Source: Isoetes taiwanensis (lineage: Eukaryota > Streptophyta > Lycopodiopsida > Isoetales > Isoetaceae). From it: a stretch of 64,000 bases of DNA. This document shows positions 1 through 64,000 of this stretch, in pieces. Where the stretch lies: positions 15,018,902 through 15,082,901 of the forward strand of contig JAJEKV010000006.1 of assembly GCA_021234155.1 (NCBI GenBank). Reading direction: 5' to 3'. The translations under genes were made by a program, and so were the position numbers. The notes below the pieces were generated by a model. It saw only the letters and a list, made by a program, of their open reading frames with translations, was not told the DNA's origin and did not search any database. Positions within the stretch are counted from its first letter, which is position 1. Every line of letters starts with the position of its first letter.

Positions 1-396
1 GCCAATGCTTGTTCTCGGCTTAGACCGATCTGTTTGAGGAAGAGAAATAGTCACATTATTTCTATCATCACGAGTTCAAATAAAATATGAATAGGTCTAG
101 CTAGAGTTCACATACATGAGAGAATGACTTGCTATAATTTGGTGTGCAAATATGCTTGCACATATAAGCTGTCTTGCATTTGTAAGTTTATAACCTCAGA
201 TGAGCATGAGGGGTTTTTATTGATCAGTTAAGGCAAATGATGAGTTATTTGCATAGAAGTTTTCCAAAAGTTTACTACTAGTACCAAGTTGATTCTCATA
301 TGCGTAACACAATTATAAGCATCTTTACATGACTTGTTGGCCTCTTCCATGCGGGTCATATTGACATAATGCGGAACATGTATCCCTATGGCGATT

Positions 397-570
397 GAAA
401 ATGGAGCGTTCATTTTGCAAGCGGCTCATATGATCATAAACGAACTTGCCTTGCTCACTTTTATTCTAGTTATGCTCTTTCATGTCAACGGCTTAATTAA
501 TGGTCTGAAGCGGATGCCTTTGCTATAGCATCAAAGGCTGCGTGAATCACGTGTACTAGATTTAGATTTT
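397..570 (+). repeat. Duplicated segment, copy 1 (partner at 1772-1952)
   Basis: This stretch, from GAAAATGGAGCG to the TAGATTTAGATT near 570, is repeated with small indels at 1772-1952. Both contain a shared core ending GCATCAAAGGCTGCGTGAAT. The second copy directly follows the ankyrin-like piece, so copy 1 is probably a duplicated exon fragment. Several differences are small indels involving C-G dinucleotides. Confidence 0.8.
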
Positions 571-602
571 AAAATGGCGGGGAAGTTCCAAGGTAATGTT
601 TT

Positions 603-704
603 TCTAATGCCACCTATATGGTTAAAGAGGAAGCAAAGTATCTCTCGGACATGTCAGCGGGAAAGGACATTGCTAACCACGATCTTTTATGGGGCCCTCA
701 TGAG
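603..704 (+). pseudogene. Coding-like exon fragment, product unknown
   Basis: A stop-free stretch of about 34 codons contains residues such as KEEAKYLSDMSAGKD and NHDLLWGPHE. It ends at CATGAG followed by GTAGCT, a plausible splice donor. I do not recognise the protein. It lies upstream of the ankyrin-like piece on the same strand and may come from the same source gene. The residue mix looks like coding sequence, but 34 codons is short. Confidence 0.35.
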
Positions 705-1640
705 GTAGCTTTATATCTTTTTTTTTTTTTTTTTGCTTGTCAAATTCCGTTACTCACTCTCTCGGTCGCTAACTTACCATCCTAGGCTGCAACGAAATTG
801 GAAAGTTAAAAGACAAAGGAATATCTCTTCGGGCACATCGGGGAATGTTGGTTTTACTATGGACCTTTCTTATCCCCCATCTTTGGATGTGAATTTGCAG
901 TATTCTTCTCGTTCAACTTCAATAAGCGGTGTTGGTGTGGACCAAGGCCCAAGTGGATTACTTTATGTGAGGCCACCTCACGGCGCTCAACTTGTGGTCT
1001 TCAAGTTCATCTTTGGAGGACTGGGGAAGCATGTCGTTTTCCAACCGCGATTCTTTAGCACAAAAATTTGGGAATTGTGCGTATAGAGAAGGGACAACGA
1101 GTGTGGACCGAGAGGACCAAAGCTTCGTCCAAAGGCGCCGTTGGAGGAGGAGCAAAGGCTGCAAATCTTTGTTCTTGAAGCCTTCAAGCGGCCGATTTGC
1201 CGAGCAAGTAAGTTTTCAACTTTGGCGGACTTCCAAATCTATATTATAAGACTAAATGTCATTACATTGTCTTGTGTTGGCCCTGTCACAAATGCGAGAT
1301 ATTTGAATGCCTTAGTCGGGATGGCTATATTAATTGATTCTATGCCAAGTGGCGGATCTATCACTAAAACTACATTATTGCTTATTTATAAACATGATAT
1401 ATAGTGGAAGTTTTTCCGGAGGCTTGGACTCAATTGAAGTGGGCCGGAACTTGCTGGTAAGACCAATACATTTTGTCAAAACGTCAAACATTCTACTTTC
1501 AAACAAATTATAGATGCATAGATAGAGCATCTGCACATACATGCACTTAGCGTTCTCTTTTCGGACATTCTTTAAAGTAAACCATAATTGCGGGTTGTTG
1601 ACATGGGAGGTTTTCTCATTTGTTTTTATGCATGTGCTTT

Positions 1641-60911: not shown

Positions 60912-61645
60912 GACTCTGCATTATATGGCAAAATATAGGGAAGTTGCCTTCTGAACGCATAAAATCTGGTTACGGACAAACAAAGAACATGGAGTCAATT
61001 AAAATCCAGAGCAAGATCTTAAACTAAAGAAACTAAAGGTTGGATTTGATGAATACCATAGAATAGAATAGAATAGAACAGAATAAGTAAGCAAACGATA
61101 TAAGAGCGCATACCTGGTGGTTAGACTCATTGATGCTAAGCATTTGAAAAATGTATGCCAAGCAACATTTGTGGACTGACCAATGATCTTTCCAATACAT
61201 CTTCTTGCACAGACAATAGAGCTTTCATTTACGAGTTATGGCCATATTTTTACTCAACTGTAAAACTGTGGCAAGCAAAGACATTAGATCATTTGGCACT
61301 GTTTTAGCCCATTTATGCTAAGAATTTGGAAAATGGATGCCTAACATCAATTGTGGATCTTCCAGTGACCTTTCCGTCGGATGTCCCTGAGCAGAAAATA
61401 GAGCTTTCGTTTTGGAGTTATGGCCATATTTCTACCCGACTGTAAAACTGTGGCAGCAAAGACATTGCCTGATTTGGCACTGTTTTGGCCCATTTCTGCT
61501 AGGAATTTGGAAAATGAACGCCTAGCATCAATTGTGGACCTTCCAGTGACCTTTCCAACGGATGTTCTTGTGCATAAAACAGAGCTTCAATTTGGGAGTT
61601 ATGCCCATGTTTCTTGTTGAGAAGTTACGGAAAGAGTCAAGCAAG
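60912..61645. repeat. 0.73-kb tandem duplication, copy 2
   Basis: Almost identical to copy 1. The one difference I noticed is a run of 4 A in place of 6 A (copy 1 near 60660). The near-identity, compared with clear divergence between the 183-bp monomers, shows that the large duplication is much younger than the monomer array. Confidence 0.95.
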
Positions 61646-63437
61646 CTCCAGCTAGAGATGGATACATAATTTAGAAAATATACCTGGAGATTTCCTCCAT
61701 GTTAGTAATGTGCAAATGGCATGTAGAGCAGGGCCTGCAAAAACTAAGAAAGATAATAAGTAACCAAGGTAAATAATCAAGCATGTTACGCTTCCATTTG
61801 CAAACCCAATATCCAGGTCTTCCTATTTTGCAAGCTTAAATATTAAAAAGACAATATCTGTTGTGAAGAATTTCCTATTGGTGTCATTTCTGCAAGGATT
61901 CCCAATAACTGTTGGAAGTGTGATTCAGATAAGAATTAAGTCAATATAAAGGTCAGATTTCTAAACTTCATGTATGCTGTGGTTTATTTAGCCAGTCCTC
62001 GAAAGCTCCACTAAAGCTAGACCATCTTTTGAATCAGTATCCGTTTTAAAAAATCTTCTCAATCACTAACTAATTAAACAACAGAAACTACATTTTCTAA
62101 ATAAACACCCATTTAGAATTCTCCCCAGAAATAAACACCACAGACTAATATTTACCTGGTAACCACAACGGCAGGGTCTCAAATGCCGATCTGTTATAAC
62201 CATCTCTTCCATGCATAAAGAACATAAATGGGAGGACATTCAGTATACCACAATTTTGCCAACCAAGAGCTCCAATCCAATAACTTCAAAGGAAATGCCA
62301 ATCCTAGACATAAAATAAAAATATCAACTAAATGCATGGATGTTACAGAGACTGCTTCTTAAGGTCGACCTAGTACTAAGGTGTGATGTCCCAACACTAA
62401 ACTGCTCTGACTAATCTACCACATATAACATATCTCAGATCTTGCTCAAGCTCCAACAAGATACAAAAACCTAGTAACCAGCTGATCTGCAGATCCAGTG
62501 GGCAAGATCCGAGCACCACATCACAAAAATACAAAGCAAGGGTCGAAAAAATGCCAGAACCCGCCTTGCAAGAACAGATGGTCGGAGGAGCTCACATGAA
62601 GAAGAGATGGCACATGGCAAAAGAAGAGGCCTTGCCTCGGAATGGCATCCGGCTTCTACAAATTCAAAGCTCCAAGAACTCAACCTGAAACTCAAAACCC
62701 CAGCCATTCTATTTGCTCTATATACTATATATCTGCCCACATTCTACAGGCGATTCTTGCTTTCATACAAAAAATCCATGCCCAGAGACAAAAGCCCGTA
62801 ATTCTGTAAGTAATTGGGCTACCGTAAGCAAAAGAAAGGAAAAAAACAATTTTGTGAACCCAAATTAGAGATACCCAACTCAAATCCGGCAAGCTTAAAC
62901 ACAATTCGAATCAAACGAGAACGAGATGGCAAAAATGAGAATCACCGAGAAGAATTAAGCCGAAAAGCTAAGTCACATGTAGTATAGAAAAAATTCGAGC
63001 TAGAGATGCGGCGCACTCCTGGGAGGTCGCTCAACATCCCAACTTCGATATTTAAAACCGTAATATAGAGCGCCGGTAGTCTCAAATCGTGCTAGAATGA
63101 GATGGCGAAGATCCCACCCAACACCGCAGAGTGCGCGCCACGGGAGTTTTCTTGTTGATTAGGGCAAGTCACAGAAATCGAATTGGGGCTTTTGTTGTGG
63201 GCCGTCCAAATCCGAGATGGACGGCCAGGATCAATCTCTATGGTGCATGCCCTCATGCATGCCCTATGCATGCCCCCCATCACATTTCTATGCCCATGCA
63301 TGACCTCTCCCATGAGGTGGCGGCATCATGGCCTTCCATTTCCAATTGGACGGCTGGCATTAATCTCTATATCGCATGGGTACATTCAAATCTCTATGCG
63401 CAAGGGGGCATCCTAATAATTTTATATATATAGTAGA

Positions 63438-63593
63438 TATATATATATATATATATATATATATATATATATATATATATATATATATATATATATATAT
63501 ATATATATATATATATATATATATATATATATATATATATATATATATATATATATATATATATATATATATATATATATATATATATATATA
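63438..63593. repeat. (TA)n tract, about 156 bp, between two 5' ends
   Basis: The longest TA tract in the window. Both flanks are 5'-module type in opposite orientation, so element polarity flips here. Confidence 0.98.
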
Positions 63594-64000
63594 CACAATT
63601 ATATAAGCACCCCCCTTATATCTAGAGATTTTGGTGTCGCCGCCGCAGCCGTCCATTTTTTGAGATCAACGGTTGAGATGAAAACATGCCAAACCACCCC
63701 AAGCACCCCCCTTGGGTATAAAGATTGAGGTGTCACGACTTCAGCCATCGAAGGTGCAAGATCTACGGTTCAGATGGGGCCATCTCATGATCCCCCCCTA
63801 TTTGGGGCTTTTAATATGGGCCATTGGATTTGCAGATTGTGAGATCCAACGGCCCGGACGAAGCCACGTCATTGTACCCCAAGCACCTTTGTTTATCTAT
63901 TGCATTTAATGCTATGAGGTGAAGTGGCATTGGAGGTGTGTAAGTGGCAAAAAATCATTGCTTTGGGTTCAGTAGAGGTGTAGGTGTCTATAGAAATTAA
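63594..64000 (+). mobile_element. Helitron-like element, 5' part (3' end outside window)
   Basis: After the TA tract the plus strand reads CACAATTATATAAGCACCCC, then CTAGAGATTTTGGTGTC and GCCGTCCATTTTTTGAGATC. It continues with GCCATTGGATTTGCAGATTG and GATCCAACGGCCCGGACG. These are 5'-module motifs seen in the other elements. The TC at the very end is not visible here, perhaps overwritten by TA expansion. The element runs off the window. Confidence 0.5.

Follow-up and report, generated by a model that had tools for sequence, protein, structure and literature searches.

What kind of transposable element settles side by side in runs of TA, and by what route could a chain of such elements be built? 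These questions are raised by a 64,000-nucleotide stretch of the Isoetes taiwanensis genome (assembly GCA_021234155.1, 1.66 Gb in 1,110 contigs; contig JAJEKV010000006.1, here C1067, positions 15018902-15082901), hereafter the window, which the original prediction had read as a chain of rolling-circle-like elements separated by (TA)n tracts. All ten of these tracts are present, each with n of at least 6, and our analysis partly confirmed the prediction: the chain of TA-linked elements of one family with unlike ends is largely real. The locus as a whole is best explained, at a probability of about 0.5, by a single DNA transposon family that moves by a Helitron-like rolling-circle route and builds chains via TA runs. 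As far as seen, its members are non-autonomous.

Nine family members occupy the window region, and seven of them are complete: B (989 bp, 10603-11591) and C (1,774 bp, 11612-13385) on the plus strand, and D (13,422 bp, 13418-26839), E (8,405 bp, 26966-35370), G (3,358 bp, 47076-50433), H (6,791 bp, 50542-57332) and I (5,971 bp, 57467-63437) on the minus strand. The other two, both on the plus strand, cross the window edges. Element A, about 9.5 kb as a whole, has its 5' end, TCATATATATATACAATTATATTG, which starts with TC, at -3161, about 3.2 kb left of the window, and its 3' part, ending in GATAGTACAAAAACTTG, at 1-6335; J begins within the window (63594-64000) with a 5' edge that lacks TC and ends as GATAGTACGAGGACTTG-(TA)7 at 77976, about 14 kb to the right. 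The tracts that link these elements to one another and to flanking DNA are (TA)19 at 6336-6373, between the 3' end of A and flanking DNA, (TA)7 at 10589-10602, at the 5' end of B, (TA)10 at 11592-11611, (TA)16 at 13386-13417, (TA)63 at 26840-26965, (TA)50 at 35371-35470, (TA)22 at 47032-47075, (TA)54 at 50434-50541, (TA)67 at 57333-57466 and (TA)78 at 63438-63593. Two segments are non-element DNA, namely AB (6374-10588) and F (35471-47031), the latter a tandem array of about 3.7 units of 3.1 kb with 97-98% identity.

The family is defined by its unlike ends. At the 5' end stands TC-N1-5-(TA)~5, often followed by CAATTAT, and at the 3' end ATAGTAC-N4-ACTTG; as predicted, all seven window-complete elements start with TC and end in CTTG, preceded by A and followed by T. 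The exact pattern RTAGTAC-N4-ACTTG followed by (TA)6 has 1,083 genome matches (539 + 544), and the backwards pattern has none. The real spacer has four bases, and the candidate GTAGTAC-N-ACTTG, with a one-base spacer, was rejected as unenriched (86 matches versus 246 when reversed). Thirty of the 1,083 matches were sampled, being the first in the list (from the first contigs) and not a random draw. CTTG closes all nine elements of the window region (A-E and G-J) and the 30 sampled loci, which were selected by motif, and a copy of C on a second contig, C75, ends in CTTTG. The eight TA-abutting RTAGTAC-x-ACTTG ends of the original prediction are indeed true 3' ends (those of A, B, C, D, E, G, H and I), but just six carry the exact motif, B having CGGTAC and I having TAGTAT. 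Similarly, six of the seven TC edges that had been listed (10603, 11612, 26839, 35370, 50433 and 57332) are 5' ends, and the 5' end of I at 63437 likewise starts with TC; the seventh, at 35471, is flanking DNA, each of the three further units of the array having this TC after TATATA, and F was rejected as a member. When 5' ends were listed with named anchors, TC right after the tract together with an inner TA run of about five repeats was present in 24 of 30, a list that includes repeat copies of one insertion (A, B, C). We take the six without TC as shortened at the tract or truncated. A stricter 5' pattern listed just 11 distinct ends and was set aside for the named-anchor listing.

Terminal inverted repeats, absent according to the original prediction, did not emerge from scoring either: in all eight complete elements tested, seven from the window and one outside it, the score was no higher than the best of 200 shuffles, and the element that came nearest, H, scored 21, its shuffles giving a mean of 16.7 and at most 27. 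The 3' tails are highly constant, a single base accounting for at least 97% at 13 of the last 16 positions among 35 distinct tails, most of them motif-selected. We also noted a subterminal palindrome of the GGCCGTCCATCTC...GAGATGGACGGCC type in D (26745-26771) and E (35283-35317), some 55-95 bp inside their 5' ends, and the related words AGAGATTGATC and GCCGTCC near other 5' ends.

Similarity between members mostly stops where the TA tracts begin. Among the 30 sampled loci and the nine window-region ends, similarity ends at the TA tract in 21 of the 22 pairs with a common 3' end (at least 80% over at least 400 bp), the pairs being partly non-independent. Similarity running through the tract, which had been named beforehand as evidence against the original prediction, was seen twice: in the remaining pair (L017/L019), a local duplication, and between A and its C75 copy, where both flanks match and the alignment reads as a duplicated occupied locus. 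Both cases look like later duplication. On contig C11, a further copy of C (L025/L026) shows 97-98% identity at both ends beside different neighbours, and E matches the sampled locus L012 at 97% over 1.5 kb. In other comparisons the 5' ends are shared and the interiors are not: the first 192 bp of H and I are 97% identical and their interiors largely unlike, D and E share 177 bp at their 5' ends at 97% with unlike interiors, and J, L024 and L027 have about 236 bp in common at 97-98% and diverge over the following ~1.2 kb seen. Such common 5' ends joined to unlike interiors are what variable read-through would give.

Chaining is common in the sample, and its orientation is mixed. On the far side of 34 distinct tracts beside 3' ends there was, by eye, another 3' end in 8 cases and a 5' end in 14, the remaining 12 having something else, so that 22 of the 34 tracts adjoin another element, which is the habit of non-nested chains joined by (TA)n known from SaTar elements. 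The head-to-tail order that had been predicted is present, but C and D lie tail-to-tail, and head-to-head tracts occur at I/J, L013, L018, L020 and L040; at L018 and at L040 the two 5' ends are just TATA apart. The accompanying claim, that the tract next to one member receives later ones, is supported. Extension of L013, L021 and L037 by 3 kb reached a 5' end in L013 alone, where it adjoins another element. We considered L038 as a solitary insertion and rejected it, as it is interrupted upstream, seemingly by a long terminal repeat (LTR) retrotransposon, and no flank was gained. The flanks past the 3' ends of A and J are mutually related (80% over 140 bp and 78% over 126 bp), and, judging by this resemblance, the same kind of repeat may have been hit by two members. 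The post-tract flanks of L022 and L036 are also alike by eye (TCCGAAGCC... and TCCTAAGCC..., with TTCCCAGAAC in both), as if one kind of repeat was hit twice.

We then have four unoccupied sibling sites, each one-sided and with 7-8 bp of TA, beside which the occupied counterparts carry (TA)7, (TA)19-20, (TA)22 and (TA)50 with no other bases added; the tract is longer when occupied than when unoccupied in all four cases. Two of these sites lie in the F array. CTGAC-TATATA-TTCCTGG is present in three units and the fourth reads CTGAC-(TA)22 followed by the 3' end of G, while TTTC-TATATA-TCTATAAATA is present in three units with (TA)50 in the first. The neighbouring chains interrupt the array at two TATATA sites that differ in their position within the unit. 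The other two sites come from C75, which holds two copies of segment AB, one without A at its left edge and the other without the B chain at its right edge. The first of these copies, AB#2, starts AAATCGG-(TA)4-CTAGCCC, where occupied loci have the 3' end of A, (TA)19 or (TA)20 and CTAGCC; AB#1 ends TTATATT-TATATAT-GCCTGCC, and at this point TTATATT-(TA)7 and the 5' end of B are present in AB#2 and in the window. The TA-abutting ends are preceded by A and followed by T, and all four one-sided sites agree with duplication-free insertion between A and T, and a run of 7-8 bp could not have yielded a 9-bp all-TA duplication. The predicted insertion inside TA runs is supported, but the run need not be a long microsatellite. 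C75 (L081, L087 and L088) carries a second A/AB/B/C/D region at ~91-95% identity with AB in tandem, matching window positions 6366-13910 at 93.7% over 7.66 kb; it could represent a segmental duplicate or, alternatively, the other haplotype.

Some members also carry gene pieces. Stop-tolerant Pfam scans covered D, E, G, H, all but the 3' 3 kb of I, the window part of A and parts of J in element sense, and, in antisense, the first 6 kb from the 5' end of D, the elements E, G and H, and 3 kb of I. Two matches in element sense exceed the curated cut-off, a 14-3-3 fragment in D (21267-21377, minus strand; PF00244, E 1.6e-12) and a pentatricopeptide repeat (PPR) fragment in E (32956-33291, minus strand; PF13041, E 1e-11; PF01535, E 9.6e-11). 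Below the cut-off are weak matches to tubulin in G (49134-49235; PF00091, E 4.4e-4) and RING in I (62135-62224; PF14570, E 1.1e-5), a GspH match in I, and three weak antisense matches (zn-ribbon_14, GUN4 and TEP1_N). The element-sense scans gave no Pfam domain in H, the remainder of D, A as far as it lies in the window, or the parts of J that they covered; none was found in the F unit, and there were no Rfam matches within the window.

As to other content, C is rich in AGAATCTAAG-type repeats, degenerate over 12262-13334, and similar stretches occur in many other sampled members. A 740-bp direct duplication (99.6%) in I at 60177-61648 overlaps an array of ~182-bp repeats, and D has a 276-bp direct duplication (98%) at 23446-23973. 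Inside J, on the minus strand, we interpret a sequence running from L071 ~4830 to L072 ~1760 (~68830-75760 in window coordinates, right of the window) as an L1-type long interspersed nuclear element (LINE), a label that comes from reading endonuclease-like and reverse-transcriptase-like frames and is not search-based.

By what route, then, would such elements move? A Helitron-like rolling-circle route is favoured over a Mutator-like one by features of the sequence, namely the TC start, the A|T site, the unlike ends, the lack of inverted repeats, the gene pieces in sense orientation and the TA-only junctions. On this model, a Rep-helicase acting in trans would copy a single strand from the 5' TC to the 3' terminator, and the copied strand would be inserted, rolling-circle fashion, between A and T inside a TA run of 7-8 bp. 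Where the terminator was missed, neighbouring DNA and a new 3' end would be acquired, and such read-through would produce members that share a 5' end but differ in their interiors, gene pieces being present in some of them. Slippage or repair could then lengthen the TA run, to which the (TA)~5 within the 5' end would add, and the lengthened tract would become a preferred target of later members, so that chains arise. Helitron Rep domains are plentiful in the genome (150 scored of 1,813 candidates). In the passages of PMC12477314 and PMC5148889 that describe it, Helitron1 is alike in its 5' TC, lack of inverted repeats, gene fragments surviving better in sense and insertion of copies near one another, as well as in the A|T insertion that the one-sided sites suggest for the present family, which differs in its TA-run setting and in the 3' end considered next.

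Several results weigh against this rolling-circle reading. The 3' end is CTTG where Helitron1 has CTRR, and no conserved hairpin or consensus structure was found in 35 distinct 48-nt tails (mean folding-energy z 0.14, with no tail under -2; 3 of 35 had a perfect stem of at least 6, within shuffle range). With CTTG and no hairpin, the family cannot be filed as a canonical Helitron, so the Helitron membership raised by the original prediction does not stand, and we place the family under no known family. The scanned parts of the elements contained neither a Rep nor a helicase domain, and no Rep-helicase copy with the family's ends was found; a comparison of Helitron Rep frames (L041-L070) with the window and L001-L040 was discarded, as its best 40 rows all fell in L006, a locus from the unenriched pattern with the one-base spacer. 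None of 30 Helitron loci fetched had a (TA)7+ tract in its 1.5-kb flanks, a weak test given that the elements are long. The CTTG and TA setting of the 30 sampled loci is not independent evidence, having been used to select them. No two-sided unoccupied site was recovered among the copies found for A or for the B-E and G-J chains. The left flank of A (L077:4431-4730) is a repeat with 30 genome matches, itself included; nine copies were fetched, forming at least two groups with differing continuations, and comprised A's own duplicate (L081), five that leave the flank before the junction and three (L078-L080) that reach it, none of these three continuing by eye into the right flank of A beyond ~16 partly matching bases. 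Finally, comparison of tracts suggests growth after insertion, but a sibling site is not the pre-insertion allele, and the copy hit by insertion may have had a longer TA run than its sibling.

The known plant elements that target TA tracts also weigh against it, as all of them are Mutator-like in the passages of the reports used here. SaTar families of guayule and rice, which include rice Micron (rSaTar2), are (TA)n-flanked and form non-nested chains; those of guayule are 0.4-1.7 kb with inverted repeats, the autonomous copy being 5.3 kb, and some 10-bp duplications were reported in 11 of 15 guayule families (PMC5907723). The present family shares the (TA)n flanks and non-nested chains, but its members are ~1-13 kb, have unlike ends without inverted repeats and carry gene pieces; Micron is itself Mutator-like with inverted repeats according to that report, and the parallel with it drawn by the original prediction holds for habit and not for structure. 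MuTAnT of Medicago truncatula also has TA tracts on both sides and targets TA microsatellites, with inverted repeats, 90% of copies at 200-300 bp, 9-nt duplications in copies outside TA and a known autonomous mudrA-like element; the passages concerned make no mention of chains (PMC4486113). Pineapple Ac-mMITEs are alike in their adjacent-insertion clusters, almost pure (TA)n intervals and very high copy number, but are Mutator-related miniature inverted-repeat transposable elements (MITEs), 1,435 copies having 9/10-bp duplications (PMC8449440). From the Helitron side, passages of PMC5148889 describe Helitron2, or FoHeli, of Fusarium with ends without CTRR, in some cases with a hairpin at the 5' end and none at the 3' end, and with tandem insertions; neither its asymmetric terminal inverted repeats nor the T-rich or TNAT targets of those cases in which the target is known were found here.

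Against this background, the members could instead be Mutator-like elements without terminal inverted repeats (non-TIR MULEs) that carry genes in the manner of Pack-MULEs and enter TA runs by cut-and-paste, the tract concealing the target duplication. This is unlikely, though short unoccupied and longer occupied runs do match the maize elements of ref. 20 in PMC5907723, for which that report gives empty sites of 6-8 bp of TA grown to as much as (TA)50, and MULE domains are common in the genome (150 scored of 1,020 candidates), none of them tied to the family's ends. The missing inverted repeats count against such elements, albeit non-TIR MULEs lack them too; the junctions seen consist of TA alone, where a 9-10 bp duplication made from a 7-8 bp run should leave non-TA bases at one end, which slippage could erase; and no MULE domain was seen in the element parts scanned. 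A somewhat more doubtful possibility is a new superfamily with unlike ends, an enzyme that is neither a Helitron Rep-helicase nor a Mutator transposase, and recognition of TA runs residing in the 5' end. The end pair fits no defining end set tested and the tails are as constant as described above, but no candidate enzyme was seen, and the TC start, A|T site and gene carriage would all suit a Helitron-like route.

Chains and tract length could also, whatever the route of movement, owe more to recombination or breakage between TA tracts than to serial insertion, or, as in the SaTar model (PMC5907723), to the recombination into TA runs of circles that contain TA filler. The flanks of A, the B-E chain and the G-J chain never meet in the unoccupied copies found, two different TA sites of the F unit are interrupted, and duplication of occupied loci has happened. 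We nevertheless regard this as improbable: the ends are constant, the sequence of unoccupied sites agrees with that of occupied ones as far as the TA run on the one side compared, and some neighbours are separated by TATA alone. Serial insertion by the Helitron-like route remains our preferred explanation.

What is already known, as the cited passages have it, is that non-nested transposon chains linked by TA arise from Mutator-like elements (SaTar, PMC5907723; pineapple mMITEs, PMC8449440); what is new is the presence in such chains of large, gene-carrying members without terminal inverted repeats. We found no report of TA chains of such TIR-less or of Helitron-like elements in the open literature, searched by title and abstract start with narrow terms and few subscription journals. 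A bolder proposal, which we hold tentatively and consider possible rather than probable, is that the family represents a rolling-circle-type, or wholly new, superfamily with a built-in 5' TA run, whose short TA landing sites are made to grow and which forms self-perpetuating chains of large gene-carrying elements across the genome. As unoccupied sibling sites are kept beside occupied ones, insertion-driven growth of a microsatellite becomes directly testable. In addition, the printed cases of TA chains that we found are, in the passages concerned, all explained by Mutator-like elements with inverted repeats, and a family that has unlike ends and lacks inverted repeats would demonstrate that the TA-chain habit is not bound to the Mutator superfamily.

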